Part shown: one piece after another, positions 14,839 through 37,056 of the stretch
How the letters are laid out: every line of letters begins with the position of its first letter
Position numbering within the stretch: the first letter of the stretch is position 1
Translations under genes and position numbers: made by a program
Notes under the pieces: generated by a model
Databases searched by the model: none
Seen by the model: only the letters and a program-made list of their open reading frames with translations
What the model was told of the DNA's origin: nothing
Virus record (IMG/VR): IMGVR_UViG_3300031864_000221
Span: 1 to 39,320 of that record
Direction: 5' to 3' (one strand)
Length of the DNA stretch: 39,320 nt
Source of the DNA: a virus

Positions 14839-14987
14839 TTTTTGATCCTCTTTTCTTTTTCGACTGTTTTAGTGCATTCTCGCCATCTTTTAAGAAAAGA
14901 AGGCTTTTGCGGATTGATTCTTAATTTGTGTGCAATCATTTTCCACTGATTTCTGCTTAGAAATCTTCTTGCTGTTTTAACTTTCAT
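14835..14987 (-). CDS. Small basic protein (50 aa)
   Basis: A 50-residue, very basic frame (starts MKVKTARRFLSRNQWKM, ends EKRIKK) fills the gap between its neighbours: its ATG overlaps the end of the 67-residue gene and its TGA overlaps the Maf ATG (ATGA). Tight coupling on both sides supports translation. No family is recognised; the charge suggests nucleic-acid or surface binding, which is not shown. Confidence 0.6.
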   Translation of the reverse strand: MKVKTARRFLSRNQWKMIAHKLRINPQKPSFLKRWRECTKTVEKEKRIKK

Positions 14988-15180
14988 CTTTAATCCTTGT
15001 TATTTTTGTTTCGTTTTCATTCATTGTCATCTCAATTAAATACCTTTCTTTTTCTTCTTTTTCAATAATTATTTGTCCAAGTTTTAATGAATCGTCAACT
15101 TCACACACCCCTGCCCACTTCATTGCATCTTTATAATTGGGATATTCCTTAAACGTTTCTGGGCTTACAAAGATTTTCAT
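14977..15180 (-). CDS. Small hypothetical protein (67 aa)
   Basis: The frame extends to 15198, but an AAGGAG site sits 8 bases before the ATG at 15180 (MKIFVSPETFKEYPNYKD), so that start is preferred. The protein is short and mixed alpha/beta in character, with no recognised domain. It overlaps the TGA of a 20-codon frame upstream and the ATG of the 50-residue gene downstream. Confidence 0.6.
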   Translation of the reverse strand: MKIFVSPETFKEYPNYKDAMKWAGVCEVDDSLKLGQIIIEKEEKERYLIEMTMNENETKITRIKDES

Positions 15181-15239
15181 TCCATTAACTCCTTGCATAG
15201 ATCTTTAATTTTCTCATCACATTCTACAATCTTTTTCAT
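15177..15239 (-). CDS. Possible 20-residue peptide gene linking two genes
   Basis: The frame MKKIVECDEKIKDLCKELME starts in an ATGA overlap with the acetyltransferase stop and ends in an ATGA overlap with the next gene. Its last codons (AAG GAG) form the ribosome site of the following gene. It may be a real small peptide or simply a translational bridge. Confidence 0.35.
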   Translation of the reverse strand: MKKIVECDEKIKDLCKELME

Positions 15240-15775
15240 GATGGTTCTTGCATTGTTTGGTGCAATTTTTCTCCTAATTTTTGATATTCTTTTTGAGTTA
15301 TAGAAAATACCATACTATTGTAATATTTTCCTTTCCAATATTTTCTATGTCTTAATATTGCTTCTTTTTTAAACCCTTGTTTTAACCAGAATTTACTATT
15401 AGTCGTTGTTAAATATACTTCTCCAAAGATAAGATTTAGGTTTAAGAGATCAAAACCATAATGTAATAAGAATTTAACAGCTTCCCTGCCTATTCCCTGT
15501 CTTGTAAATGTCATCCCGATCAATAGAGAAATTTCAGCTGTTCTGTTAATAGGATGAAATTTATCTAATCCACAATATCCAATAAATTTATCATCATTAA
15601 AATAGATAAAGAAATATTTATCTGATTGAGAAAAGGATTTGGTCCATTGAATTTGCGATTCCCCAGGAGAAGTAAAGTCACCTGTTCTTAATGCTTCTAA
15701 TACAAGATTTCTCCATTGAGCTATTTGATTAAGTTCTTCTGGTTTTGGTGAAATTTTTTCAAATCTAATTTTCAT
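15236..15775 (-). CDS. GNAT-family N-acetyltransferase (PseH-like candidate)
   Basis: This 179-residue protein has GNAT motifs: WRNLVLEAL near the N-terminus, IGYCGLDKFHPINRTAEIS (beta4), then the acetyl-CoA loop region TRQGIGREAVKFLLHYGF (R/Q-x-x-G-x-G/A type) and the C-terminal FWLKQGFKKEAILRHRKY typical of the RimJ/RimL branch. In nonulosonic acid synthesis an enzyme of this family (PseH) acetylates the 4-amino group of the amino sugar made by PseC. Its neighbour is a second GNAT, so either could do that step. The start overlaps the upstream gene by 11 bases. Confidence 0.82.
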   Translation of the reverse strand: MKIRFEKISPKPEELNQIAQWRNLVLEALRTGDFTSPGESQIQWTKSFSQSDKYFFIYFNDDKFIGYCGLDKFHPINRTAEISLLIGMTFTRQGIGREAVKFLLHYGFDLLNLNLIFGEVYLTTTNSKFWLKQGFKKEAILRHRKYWKGKYYNSMVFSITQKEYQKLGEKLHQTMQEPS

Positions 15776-16295
15776 CTTTAAATTTCCCCTTTAAAATTCC
15801 ATATTCATATATGTCAACGTATTCTCCATTTAAAAACATAGCTTCTCTGAATCTTCCCTCCTCTTTCATCCCCAATTTTTCAGCAACCTTTCTCATTCCA
15901 AGATTTGTAGAAGAAGTTCCAGTAAATACCCGATGAAGATTTAGTTTGTCAAAGGCGTGGGTGATGGCCAATTTACAAGCAATTGTTCCAACCCCCTTTT
16001 GATAATATTGATGTTCTCCAATAACTATTGCAAGCTCTCCTGACCTGTTGATTGTGTTGATAGATTGAATACTGACATTTCCAATATGTAATCCGTCAAA
16101 TAAAATCGCCCAAACAATTTTATTTTTTGAATCAAGAGACTGTTTAAATTCTTCTAATTCTTTTTCTGATTGCGGAAATAACCCATGAGAATTATATTTC
16201 GTCACAATAGGATCATCCATCCAAGTTAAATAATTTCCAATAAGATCCCCCTTTTTTAACGGTCTAATCGTAACTTCTTTTTCGGTATAAATCAT
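15765..16295 (-). CDS. GNAT-family N-acetyltransferase (RimJ/RimL type)
   Basis: This 176-residue protein shows the RimJ/RimL-type GNAT layout: VTIRPLKKGDLIGNYLTWMD at the front, GNVSIQSINTINRSGELAIV, the acetyl-CoA loop YYQKGVGTIACKLAITHAF, and LGMRKVAEKLGMKEEGRFRE with the terminal Y. It most resembles acetyltransferases found in surface polysaccharide and nonulosonic acid loci, next to PseB as here. Substrate not determined. Its ATG overlaps the stop of an 18-codon frame. Confidence 0.82.
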   Translation of the reverse strand: MIYTEKEVTIRPLKKGDLIGNYLTWMDDPIVTKYNSHGLFPQSEKELEEFKQSLDSKNKIVWAILFDGLHIGNVSIQSINTINRSGELAIVIGEHQYYQKGVGTIACKLAITHAFDKLNLHRVFTGTSSTNLGMRKVAEKLGMKEEGRFREAMFLNGEYVDIYEYGILKGKFKDEN

Positions 16296-16348
16296 TTTAA
16301 AATCCTTTCTTTTAAATCTTTTCTTAATTCGTACATTTTTGTTGTCAT
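16292..16348 (-). CDS. Possible 18-residue peptide gene
   Basis: MTTKMYELRKDLKERILK has its own ribosome site (GAGGAGACATAATC) formed by the last PseB codons, and its TGA overlaps the ATG of the following acetyltransferase. It could be a small peptide or a coupling device. Confidence 0.35.
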   Translation of the reverse strand: MTTKMYELRKDLKERILK

Positions 16349-16350
16349 GA

Positions 16351-17301
16351 TTATGTCTCCTCGATCATTTCCCTTATTTGCTTTAATGTTAACCAATGGG
16401 CATTATTGTCACTACGATATTCGAGAGGGGCATATAATACATCTTCGCCTATTGTAATCTCAAATCTATTCTTAGTTATATTCATTACAGCATGCAGACT
16501 TTCTTCTTTTGTGATCAACGCTTCATGCAACTTTTCTCCTGGACGAATCCCTACAGTTTCAATTTTAGCATCTGGGCAAATTGCCTTTGCTATTTCAAGT
16601 ACAGTGGCACTGGGCATCATAGGAATGAAAATCTCTCCCCCTTCCATATCCTCTATTGCTTGTAAAATGAAATGTGAAACCTGATTTAATGTAATCCAAA
16701 AACGGGTCATATTTCTGTCAGTGATGGTTATCTTGCCGGTTTCAGTATATTGTTTTTGGAACAAAGGAATAACACTTCCCCGGCTTCCGATTACGTTACC
16801 GTAACGGCAGCAGGAGAAATGAGGGGCACGGTTTCCCGCATATGTGTTTCCTTGGATGAACAACTTCTCAGCACACATTTTAGTGGCCCCGTAAAGGTTA
16901 ATTGGGTAACAACTCTTATCACTGCTAATTGCCATTACCTTTTCAACTTTGTTTTCAAGGGCAGAATAAAGCACATTTTGGGCACCAATAACATTTGTAT
17001 TGATAGCTTCAAGAGGATTATCTTCACATGATCCGATTTGCTTTAGGGCAGCGGCGTGGATTATGATATCAACTCCTTTGCAGGCAAGCTCAAGCCTTTT
17101 GCGGTCTCGAATGTCCCCAACAAGAAAGGATATAGGGGCTCGGTTATCAATCTTTTGTTTCATTTCCCATTGCTTTAGCTCATCCCTGGAAAAAATCCTG
17201 ATGCCTCTCGGATGGTATTCATCGAGCAATTGCTTTATTAGAGTTTTTCCAAGGCTGCCAGTTCCTCCAGTTATTAAAACTTCCTTTTCATTCCAGTTCA
17301 T
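16351..17301 (-). CDS. pseB: UDP-GlcNAc 4,6-dehydratase, inverting (PseB-like)
   Basis: This 316-residue SDR enzyme matches PseB/FlaA1-type dehydratases along its length: the NAD(P) loop GGTGSLGK (residues about 10-17), FSRDELKQWEMKQK, IIHAAALKQIGSCEDNP, TNVIGAQNVL, the catalytic SSDKSCYPINLYGATK segment with Tyr and Lys, RYGNVIGSRGSVIPLFQKQ, DRNMTRFWITL and GIRPGEKLHEALIT. PseB turns UDP-GlcNAc into the 4-keto-6-deoxy sugar, the first step to pseudaminic acid. SDKSCYP replaces the more usual SDKAANP. The gene is at the head of a run leading to Maf. The upstream gap holds the pentamer tract. Confidence 0.92.
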   Translation of the reverse strand: MNWNEKEVLITGGTGSLGKTLIKQLLDEYHPRGIRIFSRDELKQWEMKQKIDNRAPISFLVGDIRDRKRLELACKGVDIIIHAAALKQIGSCEDNPLEAINTNVIGAQNVLYSALENKVEKVMAISSDKSCYPINLYGATKMCAEKLFIQGNTYAGNRAPHFSCCRYGNVIGSRGSVIPLFQKQYTETGKITITDRNMTRFWITLNQVSHFILQAIEDMEGGEIFIPMMPSATVLEIAKAICPDAKIETVGIRPGEKLHEALITKEESLHAVMNITKNRFEITIGEDVLYAPLEYRSDNNAHWLTLKQIREMIEET

Positions 17302-17334
17302 TTATTCTCCTTTTTTGTTTAAATAAAATTTTAG

Positions 17335-17409
17335 CCTTGCCATACCATACCCGACCTCACCATACCCCACCGTGTCATGCCTAACCTATCCGCTCCGTGC
17401 CAAACCATG
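17335..17409. repeat. Degenerate pentamer repeat (CCNNN)15, potential G-quadruplex on the - strand
   Basis: Reading from 17335 in steps of five gives ccttg, ccata, ccata, cccga, cctca, ccata, cccca, ccgtg, tcatg, cctaa, cctat, ccgct, ccgtg, ccaaa, ccatg: 14 of 15 begin with CC while the other three positions vary. On the - strand, the coding strand here, it is (NNNGG)n, i.e. GG with three-base loops, the pattern for stacked two-quartet G-quadruplexes. It lies between the sialidase-like gene and PseB and is much richer in C and G than its surroundings. Confidence 0.8.
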
Positions 17410-17417
17410 CTTTGTTT

Positions 17418-18512
17418 TTAAATATTCCATTTGGTTGATGCTATATGTGTAATTTTGTCAGAATTTGTTATGTAGTAAACCGTCAATATTGACTCATCAT
17501 CAAGTTGAATTGACACAGGATAGCCAATGTCATTTCCCGCATGGGGCAATTTAAACCTATTTCTCCATTTCCTTTTATACAAACTACTTGAATACCCTAC
17601 TCCTTCTTGCAAGATCATTGGCCCAGTCCATGTTTGCCCTTCATCCTCAGATACAATTGCCCGAATGCCCATTGGTTGCGAAGCCCTGTATCCATAGCTA
17701 CACAAAATTCTCCCGTCTTTTAATCTTAGTAAATGAGGAGGCCCTCCAATTATGCTCTCATTTTTATTGGTGCGGACTTTCATTGGATAGGTCCATGTTA
17801 TACCAAGATCTTCTGACCAACTTTCCAGTAGATAAGGATGTTTGTCACTGCGAATGTGGGCAAGAATTCGATTGTTACCAAAGATAAAAGCCATTTCATT
17901 TCCATCAACTTCATCAGGGAACATATTCCATAAATGGAAGTTTTTGCCTTCGTCTTGAGATCTCCAGACAAAGCAACGGCTTTTCCCTGTTCCTTTTAGA
18001 ATGGCATAGGCAGGGATCAAGATTAGATTGTCATGGTGAAGACCCCTTGGGAAAGTCAAGACGATATCGATGCCTGGGATTTCATAGATTTTCTGGTAAT
18101 CGATCTTCCAGCCTTCTGGACGGTATTGATAAAAAAGACTCGTGCTTCTTGAAATTGTTTTGTTCCTATTTACTTTGAATCCATATGAGCCGGTTGCAAT
18201 TTTAGAATTATCAATCTCAAATGTGAATCTGTCTGATTTCTCCCGCGGGGAGTTAGAAGACCAATTGTAAGAGTGTGATAATATAGGAGAGAGCTTGTTT
18301 GAATCCATCCCAATTCTGCCATATATCCAACGATTGAAATCTTGCCAAATTTCTCCTTGATCAAATGATTCGAGCACATTCCACCAAAACAATCCCATAT
18401 GGTCAGGAACAGGGGCAGTGAAAAATCCAATTAGGATTCTGTCATTAAGTTTTTCCAGCAAAGGAAAACTGGAATATCTGTCTTTGTCTTTATAGATGAT
18501 TGGGTGTTTCAT
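17418..18512 (-). CDS. Sialidase-like BNR/Asp-box protein
   Basis: This 364-residue protein has four Asp boxes (S-x-D-x-G-x-x-W/F): SFDQGEIW (49-56), SQDEGKNF (185-192), SEDLGITW (233-240) and SEDEGQTW (288-295), the mark of six-bladed beta-propeller sialidases and related exo-glycosidases. The spacing (about 50 residues between the later ones) fits the fold. Sialidases release terminal nonulosonic acids. There is no signal peptide; the product would act in the cell, in the virion or after lysis. It lies in the same operon as genes for making nonulosonic acids. Catalytic residues could not be assigned with confidence, so another propeller function is possible. Confidence 0.72.
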   Translation of the reverse strand: MKHPIIYKDKDRYSSFPLLEKLNDRILIGFFTAPVPDHMGLFWWNVLESFDQGEIWQDFNRWIYGRIGMDSNKLSPILSHSYNWSSNSPREKSDRFTFEIDNSKIATGSYGFKVNRNKTISRSTSLFYQYRPEGWKIDYQKIYEIPGIDIVLTFPRGLHHDNLILIPAYAILKGTGKSRCFVWRSQDEGKNFHLWNMFPDEVDGNEMAFIFGNNRILAHIRSDKHPYLLESWSEDLGITWTYPMKVRTNKNESIIGGPPHLLRLKDGRILCSYGYRASQPMGIRAIVSEDEGQTWTGPMILQEGVGYSSSLYKRKWRNRFKLPHAGNDIGYPVSIQLDDESILTVYYITNSDKITHIASTKWNI

Positions 18513-18513
18513 T

Positions 18514-18699
18514 TCAATACCTTTTCTGAGGGGGAGGAGGACTAATTATATTTGGTTTGGGGTGCATTATTTTTAGAGAACACTTGTCCATTGAATGTAA
18601 TTCAGTACATTCCCTCTTAAATAGCCAAAGCGCTTTCTGCATATTAGGATGATTGCAACGGCTATAATCGCCATAATATATACAATTTATTCTAATCAC
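18514..18699 (-). CDS. Small Cys-containing protein (about 61 aa)
   Basis: The frame continues to a GTG at 18714, but AAGGAG lies 4 bases before a second GTG at 18699, which I prefer. The product reads VIRINCIYYGDYSRCNHPNM and continues with LFKREC, giving a C-(7)-C-(n)-C pattern that suggests a small metal-binding protein. The proline-rich end (SPPPPQK) precedes the sialidase-like gene. Its start lies close to the stop of the 3D-domain gene. No named family. Confidence 0.55.
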   Translation of the reverse strand: MIRINCIYYGDYSRCNHPNMQKALWLFKRECTELHSMDKCSLKIMHPKPNIISPPPPQKRY

Positions 18700-18710
18700 C
18701 TTTCTCCTTT

Positions 18711-19178
18711 TCACTGTAACGACAAAACCGCCAATACTCCTCGTTTTATTCCAAATTTCTTAGCACTCTTTAAACTTGGAAAACAAATGTCTATGCATTT
18801 CCCTTTTATTGATGCCCCCATTCTATCTGTGGCTCTACCAACGCCCCAACCGTCAATATAGATCTTTTTCCCGAGCCACCCCAGATGAAATAGCTCATCT
18901 GATATTGCCAAAGTGTAACCAGCAATTGGTCTTTTCATTGTTGCTGTCCTGGCAGGGTTTCGATCTGAGTTAATACCCTTTGAATTTGGGTGATAGGCAG
19001 TAACAGTGACCTTTTGGTGAGTGTAATTAATGCTGCCCATTTCAATGTAGGTTTCCAGTTCTGTTATTCTCTTTTCAAGATTGGATATTCTTATTTCAAC
19101 ATCGTCCGGAGTTGAATTGACCATTGAAGGAATGAATAGCAATATAAATGCGAAGAGACAAACCACTTTACTTTTCAT
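18711..19178 (-). CDS. Secreted 3D-domain protein (cell-wall-associated, MltA/RlpA-like barrel)
   Basis: This 155-residue protein has a signal peptide (Lys-rich start, hydrophobic core VVCLFAFILLFIP, likely cut near residue 22), a short coiled segment (RISNLEKRITELETYI) and a C-terminal 3D domain (about 55-155): VTVTAYHPNSKGIN, RPIAGYTLAISDELF, then D-x-W-G-V-G-x-x-T-D-R-M-G and IKGKCIDICF, which hold the conserved aspartates of the family. The double-psi barrel of this family acts on peptidoglycan glycan strands (lytic transglycosylase type). A role in wall degradation at entry or lysis is likely. It overlaps the NeuB stop by 11 bases. Confidence 0.82.
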   Translation of the reverse strand: MKSKVVCLFAFILLFIPSMVNSTPDDVEIRISNLEKRITELETYIEMGSINYTHQKVTVTAYHPNSKGINSDRNPARTATMKRPIAGYTLAISDELFHLGWLGKKIYIDGWGVGRATDRMGASIKGKCIDICFPSLKSAKKFGIKRGVLAVLSLQ

Positions 19179-20082
19179 TTTTGATTAACTCCTCTCGATA
19201 TTTTTTCAGAGGCCGCAATCCGTCTTCCGGATCTGTTCTCCATTTGCTGGCCTCGTCTTCTTTTGTCGAGGTTGAATGAATCCATTCTTTCTTGCCAATT
19301 ATTGCCATGGCATATGTTTTAAGTTCTTTTGCTTCATCAATAAGTTTTTTTGCCTCTGATGGTTTCCAGCAATGACCATAGAATGATTCGTCTCCCTTGC
19401 CATCTTCAAGATCAAAGTGAAACTCAACAATAGATGCTCCTTGCAGGATTGCAGTCAAAATTAATTCTGGGTTTCGGGTGTGATCGCTCCATCCAATCTT
19501 CGTTGGCACATAATTTTGTTCAAATCTTTGCTTCTCAATAGTTCTCGTAATTTTCTCAATGTCTTTGATCCGGGATAGGTTGCAATGCTCCGGCAGAGCA
19601 GGATAGTTAGAGTTACAATGCAAAATAGCATATGGAGGATTGCCTTTATGTATACCCCTTACTATAGGCCAGACTGCTTCATTTATGTTAGTTGTCATTC
19701 CTGTTGAGAAGATCCACGGGAGCCCAGCATCAATGACAGCTTTTAGCAAGGGAAACCACAATATTTCATAACTCCCTATCTTTAGCCAATCTGCATATTT
19801 CTTTGCAATCTCGACTGCTCTTAAATCAAAAACTGAGATGCCAAGTTTAACCCTCTTTTTGTTACAATATGATTTGATAGTGGGAAGAAAGTTTTCAGGA
19901 AGCTCCCATTTTTCCATTGAGCTTATGAGATCTTTAAATTCCGGGGCATAGAGCTGCCTTGCCTTGAACAATTGAAATTTCACAGCATTATACCCCGTCT
20001 CGGCTGCCTTCTCTATGAGTTCGATAGTTCGGTTTAATGATCTGTTATGGTTTGAGCCAATTTCAGCTATCCAGTAGATCAT
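19168..20082 (-). CDS. neuB: NeuB-family nonulosonic acid synthase without the SAF domain
   Basis: The family condenses a 6-deoxy or mannosamine-type sugar with phosphoenolpyruvate to a nine-carbon acid. The TIM-barrel motifs are clear: WIAEIGSNHNRSL at the start, YNAVKFQLFKAR, LKIGSYE, PWIFSTGMTT, HCNSNYP, IGWSDHT and VEFHFDLEDGKGDE (usually EKHFTLD). The ATG at 20082 is preferred over 20118: AAGGAGA lies 9 bases before it and homology begins there. The 304 residues end without the C-terminal SAF (antifreeze-like) domain usual in NeuB/PseI (about 340-350 residues). That domain normally caps the active site of the partner subunit, so activity or specificity may differ. Confidence 0.83.
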   Translation of the reverse strand: MIYWIAEIGSNHNRSLNRTIELIEKAAETGYNAVKFQLFKARQLYAPEFKDLISSMEKWELPENFLPTIKSYCNKKRVKLGISVFDLRAVEIAKKYADWLKIGSYEILWFPLLKAVIDAGLPWIFSTGMTTNINEAVWPIVRGIHKGNPPYAILHCNSNYPALPEHCNLSRIKDIEKITRTIEKQRFEQNYVPTKIGWSDHTRNPELILTAILQGASIVEFHFDLEDGKGDESFYGHCWKPSEAKKLIDEAKELKTYAMAIIGKKEWIHSTSTKEDEASKWRTDPEDGLRPLKKYREELIKNEK

Positions 20083-20103
20083 TTTTTTGTTCTCCTTATT
20101 GTT

Positions 20104-20151
20104 GCGATAAGCCGCCATCCCTTACGGTCGGCTTCAGTGGACTTGTTAGCC
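20104..20151 (-). repeat. attC-like site A (degenerate, before NeuB)
   Basis: On the - strand, GGCTAAC (R''-like, 20151-20145, containing the TAA of the 67-residue gene) is followed by a segment CACTGAAGCCGACC that is almost identical to site C, then GGCGGCTTATCGC. The R' side should read GTTRRRY but is CTTATCG, so this end is decayed. It separates the last small cassette from the NeuB gene. Confidence 0.55.
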
Positions 20152-20349
20152 ACCAATTATAGTATGTATTATTTGAGAGTCAGTAACATCCTCTGGCACT
20201 CCAGGCTTGCCAGAAACAGAACGATGAACAAACCCGCCCATTTCTCGGACAATCAAAACACTTTGACGAAACGTACTTCTTTCCCACATACATAGAGCAT
20301 CGTCTAATCTGACAATAGCTTTTTGAACTTCCGGATCTGGATGATTCAT
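20146..20349 (-). CDS. Cassette gene, 67-aa hypothetical protein
   Basis: This 67-residue frame (starts MNHPDPEVQKAIVRLDDALC) has a ribosome site (AAAAAAGGAGGCGTT) directly after the R' end of attC-like site B, and its TAA lies inside the R'' box of site A. That is the standard layout of an integron gene cassette. The middle reads SVLIVREMGGFVHRSVSGKP. I do not recognise a family. Base composition is a little richer in GC than the neighbours. Confidence 0.68.
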   Translation of the reverse strand: MNHPDPEVQKAIVRLDDALCMWERSTFRQSVLIVREMGGFVHRSVSGKPGVPEDVTDSQIIHTIIGG

Positions 20350-20366
20350 AACGCCTCCTTTTTTGG

Positions 20367-20439
20367 GTGGCTAACGCCTGAGCTACCCCGCCAGATTAGA
20401 GAAGCTATATCTGGTCGGAGTTCAGGGATTGGTTAGCAC
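20367..20439 (-). repeat. attC-like site B
   Basis: On the - strand, GTGCTAACC (20439-20431) pairs with GCGTTAGC near 20377-20370, and inside, ATCCCTGAACTCCGACCAGAT pairs imperfectly with ATCTGGCGGGGTAGCTCAGG, leaving unpaired bases as in folded attC sites. The terminal loop holds the TAG of the upstream 78-residue gene. The 73-base length is within the attC range. The R' end (GCGTTAGCC) is followed 13 bases later by GGAGG and the next ATG. Confidence 0.7.
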
Positions 20440-20641
20440 ATTTGTTCCATGCATCTTTAGCCTCTTGCTCATAATGCCACCAACAAGTTTGACACCCACA
20501 TTTCACACATCTAATCCTATACCCATGATTCTGCCTGGCAACCTTAGGTGGATAGCGATCAGAATAAACTTGCCCAAAAAATATGCCTTCATCTCTCTCC
20601 ATTTCTCCAGGCCCTCCACAATGTAAGCATGGATTTATCAT
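20405..20641 (-). CDS. Cassette gene, Lar-like zinc-finger protein (78 aa)
   Basis: The 78-residue product has CLHCGG at residues 5-10, YRIRCVKCGCQTCWW in the middle and AKDAWNKCANQ near the end. This CxxC...CxxC...AxxxWN pattern is that of the Lar (restriction alleviation) family of small phage/prophage zinc proteins. Lar of the Rac prophage modulates type I restriction; that role here is inference. The ATG overlaps the TGA of the 42-residue gene (ATGA), so both belong to one cassette. The last 11 codons run into attC-like site B. Confidence 0.7.
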   Translation of the reverse strand: MINPCLHCGGPGEMERDEGIFFGQVYSDRYPPKVARQNHGYRIRCVKCGCQTCWWHYEQEAKDAWNKCANQSLNSDQI

Positions 20642-20766
20642 ATATACTCATACATTTCAAAACCACATTGCGTACACTTATGTATGATTACATGTGAATA
20701 CTCTTCAGTTTTCTCAAACAGAGTATTTTTATTGCAATGTGGACAATATTCAAATGTTAATGTCAT
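20638..20766 (-). CDS. Cassette gene, 42-aa zinc-ribbon protein
   Basis: A frame of 42 codons (starts MTLTFEYCPHCNKNTLF, then HKCTQCGFEMYEY) with two CxxC pairs 20 residues apart, typical of a minimal zinc ribbon. A GGAGG site lies 5-9 bases before the ATG and directly after the R' end of attC-like site C. Its stop overlaps the start of the 78-residue zinc protein. Confidence 0.7.
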   Translation of the reverse strand: MTLTFEYCPHCNKNTLFEKTEEYSHVIIHKCTQCGFEMYEYI

Positions 20767-20777
20767 TTTTCCTCCAA

Positions 20778-20839
20778 AATCTAACGCCGCCGGTAAGACG
20801 CCACTTCTTAGTGGTCGGCTTCAGTGGCTTGGTTAGATT
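20778..20839 (-). repeat. attC-like site C (best match to consensus)
   Basis: On the - strand the site begins AATCTAAC (20839-20832; exact match to R'' RYYYAAC) and ends GCGTTAGATT (exact match to R' GTTRRRY), eight bases perfectly inverted. Between them, CCAAGCCACTGAAGCCGACC and GGCGTCTTACCGGCGG form an imperfect stem with bulged bases, and CCACT/AGTGG (with a 4-base loop) closes the hairpin. Length 62 bases, typical of short attC sites. Confidence 0.78.
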
Positions 20840-20978
20840 GTTTTTCTTGTTGCCATAATGGGGGAGTCAACATTTTATAACAAGCAGCATCTTTAGGAAT
20901 AATTACAGATTTTTCTCTAAAATTTAAAAGACAGTAACCCATTAAGCCCTCATACTTGCATGTTCCCGTAAAACACAT
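20808..20978 (-). CDS. Cassette gene, 56-aa Cys-rich protein
   Basis: The 56-residue frame (starts MCFTGTCKYEGLMGYC) has an AGGAGG site 6 bases before its ATG, which follows the R' end of site D. Four cysteines lie in the first 33 residues (C2, C7, C16, C33). The end (ATEADH) is coded by the left arm of attC-like site C. No family recognised; a small metal-binding protein is possible. Confidence 0.68.
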   Translation of the reverse strand: MCFTGTCKYEGLMGYCLLNFREKSVIIPKDAACYKMLTPPLWQQEKQSNQATEADH

Positions 20979-20992
20979 TTTAACCTCCTAAA

Positions 20993-21052
20993 ATCTAACG
21001 CATAATATTAAGCAGATTTATTTTTGCATAATACCGTATAGTGTTGTTATTC
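20993..21052 (-). repeat. attC-like site D
   Basis: On the - strand the R' end is GCGTTAGAT (exact consensus) and the R'' end is GAATAAC (partial match), which contains the TAA of the DUF3310 gene. Inside, ATTATGC and GCTTAATATTATGCG form an imperfect, AT-rich stem. Length 60 bases. More diverged than sites B and C. Confidence 0.58.
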
Positions 21053-21277
21053 TTTCCACCCCTCAAATTCAATTATCAGATCGATTTCATGTTTAATTTT
21101 TTTCAAATCTTCTAACCCTGCCCCTGTGGGATGGTCATATCTCAGTATTCTGCGAATAATTGCAGCCTTATGATGGGGTATCTGATTCTTAATGAAAAAT
21201 TCATAGGGCTGGATTTTGTAATGTTTATAATGACTTCCTCCTACTTGCTTGCTTGATGCTTTTGCCTTTTTCTTCAT
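21047..21277 (-). CDS. DUF3310-family phage protein, first gene of the cassette run
   Basis: The product (76 residues from the ATG at 21277, which has AGGAAA 8 bases upstream; an earlier ATG at 21301 sits on the predicted promoter) shows the DUF3310 pattern: QVGGSHYKHYKIQPYEFF, IRRILRYDHP and LEDLKKIKHEIDLIIEF. The family is common in phages; its function is not established. The TAA falls inside the R'' box of site D. Confidence 0.75.
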   Translation of the reverse strand: MKKKAKASSKQVGGSHYKHYKIQPYEFFIKNQIPHHKAAIIRRILRYDHPTGAGLEDLKKIKHEIDLIIEFEGWKE

Positions 21278-21307
21278 TAAGGTTTTCCTATGTTTTATCA
21301 TCTACTA

Positions 21308-21318
21308 TATTATACTGA
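21308..21318 (-). promoter_or_regulatory. Promoter -10 box P1, TCAGTATAATA, before the cassette run
   Basis: TCAGTATAATA on the - strand places a perfect TATAAT (21314-21309) about 30 bases before the DUF3310 start. The same AGTATAATA string occurs in three other intergenic sites (28331-28339, 35081-35089, 37048-37056), each before a - strand gene set. No clear -35 hexamer is seen. GTTGAAT just upstream (21324-21318) fits the GTTRRRY core, possibly by chance. Confidence 0.6.
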
Positions 21319-21333
21319 TTCAACCTATATATT

Positions 21334-22713
21334 TTAATTTAATTCTTTTCGATTCTCCCAAACTTTGTGAAACGCCTTTCCTACGTCATCTATATCCTTT
21401 TCTGTTAGAGGCAAACTGTGCAATCTCCATAAGAACAACTCCTCTTTCCACAAATGTTCGGCAACAGGGCAAGAACCTTGCGTGTAATTTTCTGCCATAT
21501 TGCCTCTTGGTGCCAAGTTAAACGGATATGAAGTGCCCCCATAGAGGCGCTCATTCTGAAACAAAGGAAAAAGATTGAGCGGTTTTATGTATCCACCCCC
21601 TATTGGCACCCCTTCTGATTCTCGCCCCTCTTCTGGGGCAAGTTCTGCTTTCACAGCTTTGATAAATTTGTCTCTATGCAATCCATTTGCCTTATTACTA
21701 TCCCATTTAAATGCTTGGACATAATAGCTATGGGTGCAATTATCCCTAATAGGTGAAGAGGTTATGGCTGGTATATCTGCTATTGCATCATCAAATGCTT
21801 TGACATTTTTCTGCTTTGTTTCTACGAAACCATCCAGTTTTTGTAATTGGCATCTGGCTATGGCAGCTTCGACTTCAGTCATACGGACGTTGAGGCCGAG
21901 CATATTTCCTGCATTGTTAGCTATATAAGCATCTCCAGCATCTATTTTTTTATCTGTATTGATAAGGTCATTCACAACAGCCTCAGCATGGTTTCTAATA
22001 AGTTGACACCTAAAGGCAAGGTCGCTGTCGTTGGTGACTATAACGCCTCCTTCACCAGAGGTGAGGTGTTTGCCGTGTGTGAGGGAGTAGATGCCCAGGT
22101 TGCCAATGGTTCCGGCATATTTGCTGCGATATACTATTTTATTTTCCGAGTAAATATTTGCATATGACCCTATCGCCTGGGCTGCATCCTCAATCACCAT
22201 AAGGTTGTATTTTTTGGCTATTGCATTTATAGCCTCTCTATCATAAGGTTGCCCAAATAAATCAACAGCAATTATAGCCTTTGTCCTCTCCGTTATCCTT
22301 TCCTCTATGCTTTTAGGATCGAGGCAGTAGTAGTCATATTCTATGTCTGCAAATACGGGGATAGCATTCCACCATAAAGGGGCAGTCGCACTACACGACA
22401 TGCTCCAGGGTGTCACGATAACTTCATCTCCTGGAGCTAACCCTATCGCCCCACAGGCCACTATCAAACCGCTTGTAGCACTGTTAACACTAATGGCATA
22501 TTTAACATTGAATTTCTCGGCCCATTCTTTTTCAAAGGCTTTGATTTGTTCACCCCCATAGAAATTCTCGTTCCAACTCCCCCGAAAATGGGAAAGGCGG
22601 CCACTGCGTATGACTGCTGCAGCTGCTTGGGCTTCCTCTTCCCCTGTTGTAATTTGACTTGGGAATGGTTTAGTTCTTATGGGAGTTCCCCCATTAATTG
22701 CTAATCTTGACAT
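21334..22713 (-). CDS. DegT/DnrJ/EryC1/StrS-family PLP aminotransferase (PseC role likely)
   Basis: This 459-residue enzyme has the family landmarks: the start LAINGGTPIRTKPFPSQ, SVNSATSGLIVACGA, PGDEVIVTPWSMSC, FADIEYDYYCLDP, VIEDAAQAIGS (the cofactor-binding Asp) and SLTHGKHLTSGEGGVIV, where the Lys forms the PLP Schiff base. Such enzymes add an amino group to keto sugars; next to PseB the expected substrate is the 4-keto-6-deoxy UDP-sugar (PseC step). The N-terminus is closer to inosose/AHBA-type members, and it is longer than typical PseC (about 380), so the exact substrate is open. The ribosome site is AAAAGGAGAAAACCAA. Confidence 0.85.
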   Translation of the reverse strand: MSRLAINGGTPIRTKPFPSQITTGEEEAQAAAAVIRSGRLSHFRGSWNENFYGGEQIKAFEKEWAEKFNVKYAISVNSATSGLIVACGAIGLAPGDEVIVTPWSMSCSATAPLWWNAIPVFADIEYDYYCLDPKSIEERITERTKAIIAVDLFGQPYDREAINAIAKKYNLMVIEDAAQAIGSYANIYSENKIVYRSKYAGTIGNLGIYSLTHGKHLTSGEGGVIVTNDSDLAFRCQLIRNHAEAVVNDLINTDKKIDAGDAYIANNAGNMLGLNVRMTEVEAAIARCQLQKLDGFVETKQKNVKAFDDAIADIPAITSSPIRDNCTHSYYVQAFKWDSNKANGLHRDKFIKAVKAELAPEEGRESEGVPIGGGYIKPLNLFPLFQNERLYGGTSYPFNLAPRGNMAENYTQGSCPVAEHLWKEELFLWRLHSLPLTEKDIDDVGKAFHKVWENRKELN

Positions 22714-22739
22714 TTGGTTTTCTCCTTTTCTCTCTTTAC

Positions 22740-22766
22740 ACCCCTCGCTGAAGTGAGGGGTTTTTA
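22740..22766 (+). terminator. Rho-independent terminator hairpin, + orientation
   Basis: ACCCCTCGC (22740-22748) and GTGAGGGGT (22753-22761) form a 9-base stem with a TGAA loop, followed on the + strand by TTTTT. All nearby genes run on the - strand, so this would stop antisense or read-through transcripts. On the - strand the hairpin sits in the leader of the aminotransferase gene with no T run after it. Confidence 0.6.
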
Positions 22767-22820
22767 TTTGCTTCTTCTCTTGGTATGATATATTTTAAAT
22801 TCTTAGGTTTCTTGTCTTCT

Positions 22821-23048
22821 TCACATTCTATTACCAACTATGTCCTTTTTTTCAGTATCAATGATAGAATTTATTTTATCTGCTTTATCAGTCTTATTTT
22901 CTTTTTCCATTTGCCTCAATTCATTAGCAGTCTGAAAAATTAAATTCCTTTCACTTAAAAACCAAGTTTCCAATGCTACGATACCTTGATTTCCATTAAT
23001 ATAACATTCTTCTAATAGTCCTATTGCATTATTGATCGTTGTGTCCAT
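22821..23048 (-). CDS. Small hypothetical protein (75 aa)
   Basis: A 75-residue, helical, charged frame (MDTTINNAIGLLEECYINGN, then ETWFLSERNLIFQTANELR and a Lys/Asp/Glu-rich end). The ATG at 23048 with GGGTAGGG upstream is preferred over the GTG at 23051. No family recognised. It lies between the aminotransferase and a small membrane protein. Confidence 0.55.
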   Translation of the reverse strand: MDTTINNAIGLLEECYINGNQGIVALETWFLSERNLIFQTANELRQMEKENKTDKADKINSIIDTEKKDIVGNRM

Positions 23049-23085
23049 CACCCTACCCTTCTTATCTTATTTAACTTCCTAAAAC

Positions 23086-23301
23086 CTATTTTAAGACCGT
23101 CAACTCCCCTTGGTTTCCAGGGGTTTTACGAAATGCTATAGCTATTATACATAACAACATTCCAAGAATAATAATAAAAGGGGACATTATAGCGACTGGC
23201 TTTATATCATTGGGAATAATGTTTTTATGAATTAACACAATGAATATTATCTGTGAAATAATAATAAGTAATCCTTCACAAAATAGAATAATATTATTCA
23301 C
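23086..23301 (-). CDS. Small two-helix membrane protein (about 71 aa)
   Basis: Two hydrophobic segments (IILFCEGLLIIISQIIFIVL and VAIMSPFIIILGMLLCIIAI) flank a short polar loop (HKNIIPNDIK), followed by a basic end. The GTG at 23301 has GGAGG 7-8 bases upstream and is preferred over the GTG at 23307. The ribosome site is made from the remnant of an oxidoreductase gene just upstream. Function unknown; holin-like topology is possible but unsupported. Confidence 0.55.
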   Translation of the reverse strand: MNNIILFCEGLLIIISQIIFIVLIHKNIIPNDIKPVAIMSPFIIILGMLLCIIAIAFRKTPGNQGELTVLK

Positions 23302-23353
23302 CTTCACCCCTCCAATATTTCATGCACAGCAATCGCATCTTCTGCCGTGCAAA
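23302..23353 (-). pseudogene. 3' remnant of a second Gfo/Idh/MocA oxidoreductase gene
   Basis: In frame and without a start, the - strand reads YLICTAEDAIAVHEILEG then TGA (about 23306). This repeats the end of the intact oxidoreductase at 24691-25698 (CTVKDAIAVHEILEGV), with strong base-level similarity. The copy lies directly after the PseF stop and the rest of the gene is missing, so the PseF and TIM-barrel genes appear to have been inserted into, or recombined with, a paralogous gene pair. Confidence 0.75.
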
Positions 23354-24034
23354 TCAAATATTTAATAATTTAAACATTAATTCTGCCCTTTCCCAATCTT
23401 CTATATTATCAATATCAACAACTCTATATTGTGGCAATATGATAGGAACAGAATCACCAAGAATTGTTTTTTTATCAAAAAAACTTTTAATATTCAACCA
23501 ATAAAATTGCCCAGCATCTTGATAATTTTTTCTAAGGTTGTTGGATGAAACAAATTCATATTCTGGCCAATTCATTTGTAATTGGCCCTTTTCATTTATA
23601 TGCATTGACCTTAAAACCGGAAAGGAAAATTCAGAGACAGAACAACAAGAATGGGCACCTTGTTTTGAAATCAAATTAAACCCTTTAATAAGATCTTTAA
23701 TTTGAATCATCGGGGCCGTTGCCAAAAGACAACAAAGATATTTTTCTTTGATTTTCATTTGTTTAATAGCATACAAGAGAACATTTGTCAATCCTGTATC
23801 ATTTTCTGCTATTTTAGGGGGAAGAAAAAAAGGGCACTCAGCTCCAAAATCTTTTGCAACTTTTGCGATTTCAGAGGAATCTGTAATAACATAAATATGA
23901 CTAAATAAATTAGATTTAATAGCCGTTAAAATAGAATAACTAATAATAGGGCTCCCATGAAAACTTTTAATATTTTTGTTCTTTATTCTTGTGCTTCCTC
24001 CTCTTGCCGGAATAATAGCAATTGATTTATCCAT
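23354..24034 (-). CDS. pseF: CMP-nonulosonic acid synthetase (PseF/NeuA family)
   Basis: This 226-residue protein is a pseudaminic/sialic acid cytidylyltransferase: IIPARGGSTRIKNKNIKSFH at the N-terminus (nucleotide-binding loop), YSILTAIKSNLFSHIYVITD, a LLATAPMIQIKDLIKG segment and, late in the chain, YQDAGQFYWLNIKSF, which is characteristic of the PseF branch. It activates the sugar acid with CTP for use by a transferase such as Maf. Its ATG overlaps the upstream stop. The gene is AT-rich compared with SpsF at 26252, suggesting a different origin. Confidence 0.88.
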   Translation of the reverse strand: MDKSIAIIPARGGSTRIKNKNIKSFHGSPIISYSILTAIKSNLFSHIYVITDSSEIAKVAKDFGAECPFFLPPKIAENDTGLTNVLLYAIKQMKIKEKYLCCLLATAPMIQIKDLIKGFNLISKQGAHSCCSVSEFSFPVLRSMHINEKGQLQMNWPEYEFVSSNNLRKNYQDAGQFYWLNIKSFFDKKTILGDSVPIILPQYRVVDIDNIEDWERAELMFKLLNI

Positions 24035-24689
24035 TGAAATATCCTTTCCATGCTTTGATTTCCTGTTTTAATAAAGATACATTTAAACCACAATTTGTTT
24101 CTATAAATGCTGGTAGATCCATTTCTTTTAAAATATTTATTGATTTAAAAAAAGATCTTTCTCCCTTTTTGAATTGTTGATGGCAAATATTGTTTGCTGT
24201 TGTACTTAGGTGAAGCTGTTTTGTCCTTTTTAAAAATAACTTTAATAATTCCGATGTTTTAGTTTTGGATAGCGTGTATGCGTGGGAAATATCAAGGGTA
24301 AAATTTAAGTTTTTATTTTTTTTCATAATCTCTAATAATAATTTATCGTTTTCATTTCCTTCTATGTTTTCAATAGATATATTACAATCTTTTAAAATTT
24401 CCAAAGCATTGTGCGAAAGATCATCAGGATGGAATGTGATATTTTTGGCTGAAATATTATGATACATATTATTTAAATCGATTAACCTTTTTTCACTTAA
24501 AAAAACAGGATGGAAACTAACATATTTTAATGATTTTAACCACAATATATTATTCTTTTTTAAATAAAACGGTTTATTATGCAATGCAATTTCTATACAA
24601 TTTATATCAAAGGTTTTTGAAACAATACCTAAAGATTCATTTATATCTTGAATCTTATAAATAGCTCCTGTTGATATTCCAATATTCAT
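24027..24689 (-). CDS. Xylose-isomerase-like TIM-barrel protein
   Basis: The product (220 residues from the ATG at 24689; GGAGGGG lies 7-8 bases upstream, made by the last oxidoreductase codons) resembles AP-endonuclease-2/sugar isomerase TIM barrels: MNIGISTGAIY, CIEIALHNKPF, YVSFHPVF, ITFHPDDL, SIENIEGN, FTLDISHAYTL, QLHLSTT, PAFIETNCG. The His/Glu/Asp positions could bind a metal. It lies between the oxidoreductase and PseF genes and may handle a sugar intermediate, perhaps replacing an enzyme not found here. The exact reaction is not known. Confidence 0.72.
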   Translation of the reverse strand: MNIGISTGAIYKIQDINESLGIVSKTFDINCIEIALHNKPFYLKKNNILWLKSLKYVSFHPVFLSEKRLIDLNNMYHNISAKNITFHPDDLSHNALEILKDCNISIENIEGNENDKLLLEIMKKNKNLNFTLDISHAYTLSKTKTSELLKLFLKRTKQLHLSTTANNICHQQFKKGERSFFKSINILKEMDLPAFIETNCGLNVSLLKQEIKAWKGYFNG

Positions 24690-24690
24690 T

Positions 24691-25698
24691 TTAAACCCCC
24701 TCCAATATTTCATGTACTGCAATAGCGTCTTTCACAGTACATGTTAAATCTTCTTTTCCATCAAGATAATTAACAGCATTATCAATTAAATTATAAAGGG
24801 CAACATTTAAAAATGTTTCTTTTCTGGTTACATCGGTTAATCGGTAATTGAGGAATTTATGAACACTCCATTCACTTTCACCTTGTTCAATTATTGGATA
24901 CATTTCATAATAAAATCCATTGTCGATAAATCGAACCCTACATTTTTCAAAAAATATATCAATTTCAAAAACTTTGTAATTTCTTGCGTCCAATGGAATG
25001 AATGAAATACTATTGCATTTTTCAAATTTAAAATTAACAGTAATTCCAGGATCTGTTTGATCCCTATCAATAATTAGAGGAGCTGATTTATCAATATTGA
25101 ATTCAATGCATTTTTCAAAAAAATATCTCATTAGGTCAACGGCATGACATCCTTCATGCTTTAATCCTCTTGTATAAAGCACTCGACAATTCAATGCCTT
25201 GCCAAATTTGCCAGAGTCAATTTGCTTTTTGATCTCTTGATAACCCTTGGCAAATCGGCGGATGTAATCAACCATGATGGGAATACGATGTCTTCCATCT
25301 TTTGTTTCTCCTTTTTGTTGGTGAATTATGTCATTTGCTTCAATAGAATCAAGGCAAAAAGGTTTTTCAGCGATGATTAGTCTGGGTTGATAATTCAATG
25401 TTTCTGATAAAATTTTATAATGTGTATTTGTGGGGGTTGCTATAATTACAATATCAGGTTTGCATTCTATCATCATTGGTTCGATAGCAGGATACATTGC
25501 TTTTACGTCCCACTTTTCACAGGCAGATAGAGATTTTTTTGTATCCGTATCAACAAAAGCAACTAATTCTGTTCTAGAGTGAGAGCAAACGGCATTGCTG
25601 TGTGTTAAAATATTTGGACTTCCAAGGTAATCGATATGATCGGGCTTTGAACTCCCTATGCTACCGCAGCCTACAATTGCAACCTTATAGTTGTTCAT
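24691..25698 (-). CDS. Gfo/Idh/MocA-family NAD(P)-dependent sugar oxidoreductase
   Basis: This 335-residue protein has the dinucleotide loop KVAIVGCGSIGSS (residues 5-17), DIVIIATPTNTHYKI and the catalytic-type IAEKPFCLDS (EKP motif, about 110), typical of the family; the C-terminal half is the alpha/beta substrate domain. Relatives oxidise or reduce sugar nucleotides or inositols, and often work with DegT aminotransferases, one of which is in this cluster. The end (DAIAVHEILEGV) is repeated as a remnant at 23302-23353. An AAGGAGGGGAGG site lies upstream. Confidence 0.85.
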   Translation of the reverse strand: MNNYKVAIVGCGSIGSSKPDHIDYLGSPNILTHSNAVCSHSRTELVAFVDTDTKKSLSACEKWDVKAMYPAIEPMMIECKPDIVIIATPTNTHYKILSETLNYQPRLIIAEKPFCLDSIEANDIIHQQKGETKDGRHRIPIMVDYIRRFAKGYQEIKKQIDSGKFGKALNCRVLYTRGLKHEGCHAVDLMRYFFEKCIEFNIDKSAPLIIDRDQTDPGITVNFKFEKCNSISFIPLDARNYKVFEIDIFFEKCRVRFIDNGFYYEMYPIIEQGESEWSVHKFLNYRLTDVTRKETFLNVALYNLIDNAVNYLDGKEDLTCTVKDAIAVHEILEGV

Positions 25699-25736
25699 TT
25701 ACTCCCTCCCCTCCTTCTTGCGACATTGTATTTCAT
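25695..25736 (-). pseudogene. 13-codon frame, possible remnant of the 53-aa gene
   Basis: MKYNVARRRGGSK ends in an ATGA overlap with the oxidoreductase start. Its codons resemble the end of the 53-residue gene at 26094-26255 (KHNVTPSRRRGNI), including the shared AGAAGGAGGGG that acts as the ribosome site of the next gene. It is probably a leftover duplicate 3' end rather than a functional peptide. Confidence 0.35.
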
Positions 25737-25761
25737 TTTTTTTACTTTTTTACACAGACCT

Positions 25762-26097
25762 TTAACAATTCTCAAAAAAAGTACGAAATATCTCAATTCG
25801 ATTTTTTCTGTTGGAAATTGGCTTGAGTTTAGACATTCCTTCGGTGGCCCGTTTCCATTTTTCTTTTGTTATATCATCTATGGCATTTATAATGTTGAAC
25901 TTCAATGGTCCAATATCAAAGTAAAAGCCACTGTCTGGTCCATAACTATCCTGATCTTCTGTTTTATATATCTCAATTCTTGTTTTTTCCAATTCTCTTT
26001 GAATAATATGTGCCTCTTTACTATTTACGACAATGTCAATATCTGAGTCTTCTGTAGCAGGTCCATAGACTTGTGTACCTGTAAATATAAGTCTCAT
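25762..26097 (-). CDS. Small nucleotidyltransferase-domain protein
   Basis: The 111-residue protein has the minimal nucleotidyltransferase pattern: GTQVYGPATEDSDIDIVVNS near the N-terminus, equivalent to GS-x(8-10)-[SD]D-x-D, giving two metal-binding Asp. It lacks a substrate domain and resembles MNT-type domains (antitoxin nucleotidyltransferases) and small phage homologues. The usual G-S before the loop is G-T here. Its ATG overlaps the stop of the 53-residue gene. The substrate cannot be inferred. Confidence 0.68.
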   Translation of the reverse strand: MRLIFTGTQVYGPATEDSDIDIVVNSKEAHIIQRELEKTRIEIYKTEDQDSYGPDSGFYFDIGPLKFNIINAIDDITKEKWKRATEGMSKLKPISNRKNRIEIFRTFFENC

Positions 26098-26255
26098 ATA
26101 TTTCCCCTCCTTCTTGATGGTGTAACATTGTGTTTGACCTTGTGTCTCTTAATAACCTTTCCTTCTGAAGATTTCACCAGGACTGTTAATGGATTTTCTT
26201 TTATTACTAATCCCTTGACAGGTTTACCACTTAATTGATATATGACGGTTTTCAT
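26094..26255 (-). CDS. Small basic protein (53 aa)
   Basis: The frame (starts MKTVIYQLSGKPVKGLVIKE, ends SRRRGNI) begins in an ATGA overlap with the cytidylyltransferase stop, has GGAGGAAGG before it, and ends in an ATGA overlap with the nucleotidyltransferase gene. Alternating hydrophobic residues (VKGLVIKENPLTVLVKSSEG) suggest a small beta-barrel. No family assigned. Confidence 0.62.
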   Translation of the reverse strand: MKTVIYQLSGKPVKGLVIKENPLTVLVKSSEGKVIKRHKVKHNVTPSRRRGNI

Positions 26256-27019
26256 CCTTCCTCCGGGGTCTTACGTTGAACTGATTGATTGATTTTAATT
26301 AGCTCTGGATTTTCTGCCAAAAAATTGACAACCCCTTCTGCTGTGAATGCAGGGTTATGCCCAAATCTATCAAATATAATTTTCAATAATCCATAATCTT
26401 CTGGGGTATCGAGGGTTAATCCGAGATCAGGCCAATACATTGACTGAGGGGGTTGCCATTGATAGATGCTGAAAACTTCAGGGTGTTGGGCAATATTCCA
26501 TCCACAATGTTTTGGGGGGTCGAATAAATCTTTACACTTTTGGAGAGTCCGAGCCCAGTAGCACTGAATATCTAACCCGTTAGGCCAAGAACGGGCAACG
26601 ATATCATTTGAAACGTAATCAAGATCGGGGTATAATTCTGTTTTTAATCTTCTAATTAATTCGTCAATATGCCTTGGGTCAACACAAGGACAGTCTGCCG
26701 TTAAATCTACAATGATATCTGCATCATGAGCTTCAGCGGCGGATATAACCCTCCCCATGACATCATCTTCTTCCCCTGCATAACGATGAATATAAGCCCC
26801 AGCAAACCTATTGATCCCTTGCTTTTCATGTACACATATTGGGTCGTTTGGGGCTCTTGCTGTTGTTGCAATCACAACTCTATCAACTGAATCTGCAAGA
26901 GAAACCCTTTTTGCCATCCACCAAAGGACAGGTTCCCCTGCCAATGGTAAAAGCACCTTTCCGGGCAACCGGGTTGATGCCATACGAGCTTGGATGATGG
27001 CAACTGTTTTAGTTTTCAT
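26252..27019 (-). CDS. SpsF/KdsB-like cytidylyltransferase family protein
   Basis: This 255-residue protein matches SpsF-type (spore coat polysaccharide) cytidylyltransferases: VAIIQARMASTRLPGKVLLP with the nucleotide loop, LAGEPVLWWMAKRV, DRVVIATTARAPNDP, EEDDVMGRVISAA, IIVDLTADCPCVDP and LTLDTPEDYGLLKIIF. SpsF enzymes are found with NeuB/PseF proteins in nonulosonic acid loci and may transfer CMP to a second sugar. Codon use is richer in GC than that of PseF. A GGAGAA site precedes the ATG, 6 bases after the upstream stop. Confidence 0.85.
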   Translation of the reverse strand: MKTKTVAIIQARMASTRLPGKVLLPLAGEPVLWWMAKRVSLADSVDRVVIATTARAPNDPICVHEKQGINRFAGAYIHRYAGEEDDVMGRVISAAEAHDADIIVDLTADCPCVDPRHIDELIRRLKTELYPDLDYVSNDIVARSWPNGLDIQCYWARTLQKCKDLFDPPKHCGWNIAQHPEVFSIYQWQPPQSMYWPDLGLTLDTPEDYGLLKIIFDRFGHNPAFTAEGVVNFLAENPELIKINQSVQRKTPEEG

Positions 27020-27025
27020 ATATAT

Positions 27026-27643
27026 TTATTCTCCGTAATCAACAGATGAAACTCCATTTTTTATTGTCACATTGATAGTTCGATCAGCACAACTTATGAG
27101 TTCAGGGATATGACTGATCATTATGATTTGTAGTCCTAATTGCTTGGAAATCTCTTGAAGCATTTGGCCAGCCAATGGCATTCGGCCTCGTGAAATCCAT
27201 TTGAATGGCTCATCCAAAATTAATGTTGCCCTGCTCCTGGGTTGTGCCAATGACCAACTCCCTACGCGTAAGGCAAAACTGGCAACGTCAACTGGGCCTC
27301 CTCCGCTAGCTTCTAAAGGTTTAATCAAGTTGTCATTTCGTTCAAAGGCAAGGCGACATTCGGTTGTACCTCTCCCTGTAATCTCAAATTTGGCTGACAT
27401 TTTATAGGGATTATTTTCGTAAACAGCAGCAAGAGCAAGACTGACAGGCTCCTCTATTCGATATTGTAGCTCTTCTTGAGTCGCTCTGGCTACAGCACTT
27501 ATGATTGCCTGTGCTTTCTCACTTATGGTGATTTCTTTTTCAACTGCCTCCAGTGTGGAGATAATGGATGTTAGATCAGCAGCAATTTGATCTCTCCTGC
27601 CAACTTTCTGTTCATATTTTTGTCTTATAGATTGAAGGTTCAT
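27026..27643 (-). CDS. sbcC: C-terminal half of a split SbcC/Rad50-like ATPase
   Basis: This 205-residue protein has no Walker A but carries the rest of an SMC/Rad50 head: a short coiled start (1-60), the ABC signature-like EASGGGPVDVASFALRVGSW (111-130; S113-G116 in place of LSGG), Walker B ATLILDEPF (139-147; D144, E145) and the switch His in MISHIPEL (178). It would pair with the Walker A half encoded at 29552-30775 to make one ATPase. The ATG overlaps the upstream TGA (ATGA). Together with the SbcD-like nuclease in between, it should process DNA ends during phage recombination. Confidence 0.82.
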   Translation of the reverse strand: MNLQSIRQKYEQKVGRRDQIAADLTSIISTLEAVEKEITISEKAQAIISAVARATQEELQYRIEEPVSLALAAVYENNPYKMSAKFEITGRGTTECRLAFERNDNLIKPLEASGGGPVDVASFALRVGSWSLAQPRSRATLILDEPFKWISRGRMPLAGQMLQEISKQLGLQIIMISHIPELISCADRTINVTIKNGVSSVDYGE

Positions 27644-37047: not shown

Positions 37048-37056
37048 TATTATACT
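37048..37056 (-). promoter_or_regulatory. Promoter -10 box P4, AGTATAATA, before the tRNA-like gene
   Basis: AGTATAATA on the - strand (TATAAT at 37054-37049), about 27 bases upstream of the tRNA-like 5' end and overlapping the last codons of the polymerase gene. Same string as P1-P3. Confidence 0.5.

Follow-up and report, generated by a model that had tools for sequence, protein, structure and literature searches.

Integron cassettes without an integrase behind a putative attI-like docking element in phages

Qi et al. 2023 (PMC9892861) described 17 phage CALINs, among them those of TJE1, PH101 and P12002L; attCs of virulent phages recombine with attI1, and IntI1 uses phage attCs (PMC9892861). 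Phages carrying pieces of host integrons, intI included, have also been published (PMC9892861). The locus reported here lies in a stretch of DNA, hereafter the window, that comprises a whole IMG/VR virus record of 39,320 bases, probably a genome fragment. With three predicted attCs within 0.8 kb and no integron integrase nearby, its array is a further phage CALIN. While phage CALINs are already published (PMC9892861), the docking element at the start of this array is apparently undescribed, and we found no description in open-access papers of a common attI-like element starting integrase-less phage arrays.

The carrier is a contractile-tailed phage, with sheath, tape measure, baseplate and fiber proteins encoded in the window; the sheath protein is 34-37% identical to sheaths of Mu-like and Bordetella phages. 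Replication and recombination genes are also present. Two observations concern the gene content at large. Positions 11961-27643 (minus strand) hold a near-complete nonulosonic (pseudaminic-type) acid kit of PseB-like and PseC-like proteins, two GNATs, a NeuB family member, two cytidylyltransferases and a Maf/MptE-like glycosyltransferase, with which a surface sugar could be made or decorated. A single ORF at 37055-39304 (minus strand) combines DNA polymerase III alpha domains with a C-terminal uracil-DNA glycosylase domain.

A preliminary description of the window had claimed four attC sites (A to D) separating small genes, and we found four sites at about the same positions, all on the minus strand, with small genes (56, 42, 78 and 67 codons) behind R' boxes. 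The region was searched with an attC profile, R1, made from 33 attCs of other phage contigs with the window left out of training (search space for E-values 516 kb). Because RNAalifold predicted only 3 pairs on the MAFFT alignment of these training attCs, R1 works largely at the sequence level. As independent yardsticks for attC calls we took class 1 integron loci, and R1 also recovers plasmid integron attCs (aadA2 at 47.6 bits, aadA1 at 44.0 bits). The features of the region are as follows, in the order in which the minus strand is read.

21334..22713, minus strand: DegT/PseC-like aminotransferase gene; left flank, on the upstream side of the operon (Pfam PF01041, E 5e-75)
21306..21337, minus strand: promoter-like stretch TTAAAA-N17-TATAAT, conserved in a related phage (G007)
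21047..21301, minus strand: DUF3310-like small phage gene; flank, outside the cassettes (PHROG 5839 and 236 at E 4e-7; Pfam DUF3310 only at E 0.025)
20993..21035, minus strand: attI-like docking element, the former site D (R box GTTAGAT 20993-20999; predicted crossover after G 20999)
20785..20998, minus strand: cassette 1, with an ORF at 20808-20978 (56 aa) and attC C
20779..20838, minus strand: predicted attC site C (R1 44.6 bits, E 4e-8; bottom-strand fold z -4.4)
20375..20784, minus strand: cassette 2, with two ORFs and attC B
20638..20766, minus strand: zinc-ribbon-like ORF of cassette 2, 42 aa
20405..20641, minus strand: Lar-like ORF of cassette 2, 78 aa (phrog_599, E 2e-5)
20369..20438, minus strand: predicted attC site B (R1 57.6 bits, E 3e-11; bottom-strand fold z -3.6)
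20100..20374, minus strand: cassette 3, with an ORF at 20146-20349 (67 aa, no family) and the degenerate attC A
20100..20151, minus strand: predicted attC site A, R' box lost (R1 25.0 bits, E 0.002; weak fold, z -1.6)
19168..20082, minus strand: NeuB-family synthase gene, right flank (PF03102, E 3e-39)

The attC model search that the preliminary description had proposed, carried out with our own R1 profile, thus gave matches at B, C and A. The R''/R' boxes (RYYYAAC / GTTRRRY) are exact in C (ATCTAAC...GTTAGAT, 20779-20838), as previously described, carry one mismatch class in B, and are reduced to R'' in A. Sites A and C have CACTGAAGCCGACC in common, which had also been noted correctly, and site C matches a G016 attC at 92.7% identity along 55 bp. 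Bottom-strand folding, likewise proposed, yielded attC-type hairpins with extrahelical bases, among them a T left unpaired in the L arm; B and C fold more stably than shuffled sequences, while A is weak and D does not stand out (z 0.2). We take A, B and C to be, in all probability, integron attC sites of the bacterial kind. The claim of four attCs holds for these three, A being without R' box, and fails for D, which has no R1 match. Since D is not an attC and the DUF3310-like gene lies in the flank (see below), the array consists of three cassettes with four ORFs. The last array junction is decayed, as site A has no R', and this decay suggests that at least part of the array may now be fixed.

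Further carriers were found by scanning IMG/VR with the motif of sites A and C, the attC core and the array-start motif. These are G002 (IMGVR 3300031368_000001, 108 kb; the contig G004 matches it without difference over 55.9 kb), G003 (3300031864_000003), G016 (3300008516_000145), G017 (3300031578_000527) and G018 (3300031553_000021). G003, the pair G016/G017 and the pair G002/G018 have different portal, head and tail families, and outside the element, the attCs and one cassette most carrier pairs have little DNA in common, with short shared-DNA exceptions among G003, G016, G017 and G018. Array length ranges from 3 to 11 attCs, and the attCs are diverse within one array. In G016, some attCs (L050 1141-1966, minus strand) measure 123-129 nt and have the 3' part of the gene inside the hairpin. 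One candidate of the first scan, L002 (G001), has no supported array by R1. Two viral contigs found via a cassette homologue carry attC matches of other sequence types (L100 900-2940 and L102 1662-1719, both minus strand) and no attI-like element.

Site D shows neither a hairpin (bottom-strand fold z 0.2) nor an R1 match, which rules it out as a fourth attC. It appears to be a copy of a separate attI-like element of about 40 bp ending in G^TTRRR. Leaving out the duplicate contig G004, we count ten copies, all immediately ahead of a cassette and spread over six phage contigs: one in the window, two in G002, one in G003, three in G016, one in G017 and two, in tandem, in G018. Eight arrays start with the element, three of these in G016; the copy in G003 lies inside an array, directly after one attC and directly before the next cassette. 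A sequence model of eight copies (R2), from which the window was left out, uncovered a previously unseen copy at G016 44307-44348, where the third array of this phage begins. In the window R2 matches 20995-21035 with 23.4 bits (E 3e-5), which makes this the most diverged copy and compares with 20-22 bits reached by chance matches in a larger scan; by blastn it is 77% identical to a G016 copy over 70 bp. Among nine copies, column identity is about 0.44 outside the element on either side and 0.7-0.9 from position -40 to -1, and the GTT is invariant. The conserved block stops at the base where integron cassettes join. In G018 (L053 509-586) two elements stand in direct tandem, and the R box of the first is where the second begins; in this arrangement the element looks like a minimal cassette in its own right, about 36 bp long. 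A looser element pattern returned 19 further viral loci, which have no attC, score at most 20.3 bits and were taken as chance; among cultured phages and plasmids there was no good element match. The element thus stands at the start of arrays with a cassette joined at G^TT, as an attI does, and its use as a true attI is putative.

In integrons, an attC is adjoined by the R' of the following cassette, and the partner expected for its R'' is therefore the R' with which its own cassette begins. This is the pattern found: complementary runs in 44 cassettes average 7.41 nt with the own start, compared with 4.42 nt in situ and 4.35 nt with shuffled partners, and none of 5000 shuffles came as high. 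The nine cassettes that directly follow an element have runs of 8, 3, 9, 11, 4, 10, 6, 9 and 13 nt, a result that only 10 of 362,880 permutations equal. Among the 33 attCs used for training, R'' pairs with its in-situ R' no better than with shuffled partners, and the signal appears with the own cassette start. Such pairing is the signature expected of circular cassettes that an integron integrase has joined; we see no explanation for it that would do without one. The arrays arose by the joining of circular cassettes, the first of them at the G^TT of the element. Cassettes 1, 2 and 3 of the window show runs of 8, 5 and 10 nt; as cassette 2 matches over 5 nt only and the last attC is decayed, the window array may now be inert.

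Relatives of the window with the same flanks had been called for as a check, and one of them, G007 (IMGVR 3300031673_014237), has the flanks without cassettes. It matches the window at about 75% DNA identity along pieces that together cover 17 kb, and it is also related to the carrier G003 (78% over 12.9 kb). DegT, DUF3310 and NeuB genes are consecutive in G007 with no array between them, i.e. an empty site, whose junctions were read by eye as the MAFFT alignment misplaces the NeuB end. The presence of the same genes without the array indicates that the array lies inside phage DNA and that the contig is not chimeric there. The NeuB gene of the window, with a likely start at ATG 20082 behind AAGGAG, encodes a protein 75% identical to its counterpart in G007; no relative came up when viral contigs were scanned with NeuB. 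The DUF3310-like gene, which the preliminary description had counted as a cassette, adjoins neuB in this array-free relative and belongs to the flank. In the window the promoter-like stretch precedes DUF3310; in G007 it is found between DUF3310 and NeuB (L024 about 859-890, plus strand), and on account of this change of side the flank must also have been rearranged, which leaves the left boundary of the insertion uncertain. In the window the stretch probably drives a DUF3310-cassettes-NeuB operon, its promoter role being read from the sequence.

A forward ORF of at least 25 codons is present in 41 of 44 cassettes, a reverse ORF alone in two and none in one. The first cassettes differ between all platforms. 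Only a few of the 36 cassette proteins scanned fall into known families, RNA ligase, YopX and Lar-like proteins included. Much of the recognizable cargo is small accessory genes of phage type, and with such cargo phages probably use the platform to trade accessory or counter-defence genes. One cassette gene is common to G002 and G016 (92% DNA identity, different attCs) and has homologues in 20 further viral loci, mostly with no attC nearby. Homologues of the Lar-like gene of the window include an ordinary phage gene (L093) and a gene between GTTAGCA and an attC-like end (L094). In G003, a tRNA-like RNA of 127 nt with a large insert (L004 1061-1187; Rfam tRNA 33.5 bits, not called by ARAGORN) makes up a whole cassette between two attCs, and its acceptor-stem ends are the cassette ends (12-nt complement). 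Cassettes or flanks at L033 7780-7960 (G002) and L050 420-520 (G016) end in T-arm-like GTTCGATTC / GTTCAACTCC plus acceptor-like stretches, with no Rfam family match.

How these arrays came into phages can be read in several ways. Palindromes between short phage genes on one strand could be taken for simple terminators or for repeats that arose by chance; of terminators one would not expect matches to an attC profile that also finds bacterial controls, hairpins with extrahelical bases or cassette-circle complementarity, and this reading appears already contradicted and is highly improbable. It is unlikely, if less remote, that the element is the chromosomal-integron attI of an unsampled host, taken up together with its first cassettes by ordinary recombination and with no exchange in the phage. 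The cassettes and attCs do resemble those of bacterial integrons, and phages with host integron pieces including intI are on record (PMC9892861). A strict element pattern, however, gave three matches in about 85,000 GTDB bacterial and archaeal species genomes, none of them convincing and all in genomes without attCs by R1, and in genome samples of Bacteroidota and Chloroflexota, the two phyla sampled, attCs were only rare; no host integron came to light. Nor was any intI, which would adjoin an attI, found beside the element copies. IntI was absent from 13 virus records, the window and 12 others, a set that includes G002, G003, G004 and G007 but not G016-G018, and the arrangement of intI beside attI that defines a complete integron did not occur there. 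As the records are fragments, the phages may still code for an IntI elsewhere. The window record, itself a fragment, has no TIGR02249 or phrog_1 match. The phrog_1 family was used in place of PF00589, which missed the G016 integrase, so that this gene served as an internal positive; among seven records including G016-G018 it identified a phage-type tyrosine integrase only in G016, far under the IntI cut-off (31.8 vs 265 bits). Capture from a host also sits poorly with first cassettes that differ at every platform, with a phage that has three platforms and with cargo that is partly phage-type.

Somewhat more doubtful again is a reading of the element as a promoter, or as a shortened AT-rich attC left from a lost first cassette, with cassettes added by attC x attC recombination. 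The element is AT-rich and precedes genes, G018 has it in tandem and G003 within an array, and weak hairpins are formed by three of the copies (z -2.3 to -4.0). A promoter, however, need neither end at the crossover base nor carry the R' complement of the first cassette; as to a remnant attC, six copies including that of the window fold little or not and none has a TAAC-type R'' box. In both cases it would be surprising that the element is far more conserved between unrelated phages than the attCs are.

We therefore favor, with a probability of about 0.7, that the region in the window is an integrase-less integron platform in a phage, made up of an attI-like element and three attC cassettes and served by host IntI in trans. 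The integrase-less array inside a phage, as first proposed, is borne out by profile, folding, cassette-circle and empty-site tests. The platform would work like an integron whose integrase is elsewhere and does not amount to a complete integron. In a host with an integron, IntI would cut out cassettes as circles, which the same enzyme would insert in trans at the phage element during infection or lysogeny; it may also move cassettes back out of the phage element. Inserted cassettes would be read from the upstream phage promoter within the DUF3310-cassettes-NeuB operon. That a cassette array recurs at this landing site in several viruses suggests that IntI-less viruses borrow the host enzyme. 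Cassette exchange by host IntI in trans is now better supported than in the preliminary description, and we still infer it. We see even odds for the wider proposal that unrelated phages possess a dedicated, phage-specific attI docking site (at most 3 copies per genome) and code for no integrase themselves, and that host IntI links them in a common network for the exchange of accessory-gene cassettes. If this is true, phages are integron users with their own landing sites and not passive carriers of stray attCs. There would then be a site-specific route to phage gene mosaicism beside homologous and illegitimate recombination, and the occurrence of one small cassette gene in phages with almost no other common DNA would be explained. 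Phage-to-integron gene flow would also be directly testable with the existing E. coli assay.

Compared with known systems, the arrays share with sedentary chromosomal integrons the small genes of mostly no known function and differ in being short (3 to 11 attCs), phage-borne and without integrase, and in the diversity of attCs within one array. The attCs are recognized by the same R1 profile as those of class 1 integron cassettes (aadA and others), including the AAGCCGAC core, whereas the cargo consists of small, phage-borne genes of phage type and no resistance genes. Like bacterial attI sites such as attI1, the element stands at the array start, ends in an R box and has the first cassette joined after the G. 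Unlike the attI of bacterial integrons it has no intI beside it, numbers up to three per phage and in one case stands in tandem; it has no clear sequence similarity to attI1, and its strict pattern was not found in bacterial genomes. The closest relatives are the phage CALINs (Qi et al. 2023), which are likewise integrase-less attC arrays in phages with small genes in one direction. For the CALINs of virulent phages no common attI-like element was reported (PMC9892861), whereas here one conserved element precedes the arrays in six contigs, and beyond the phage CALINs of that study we find an empty site and a cassette-circle signature.
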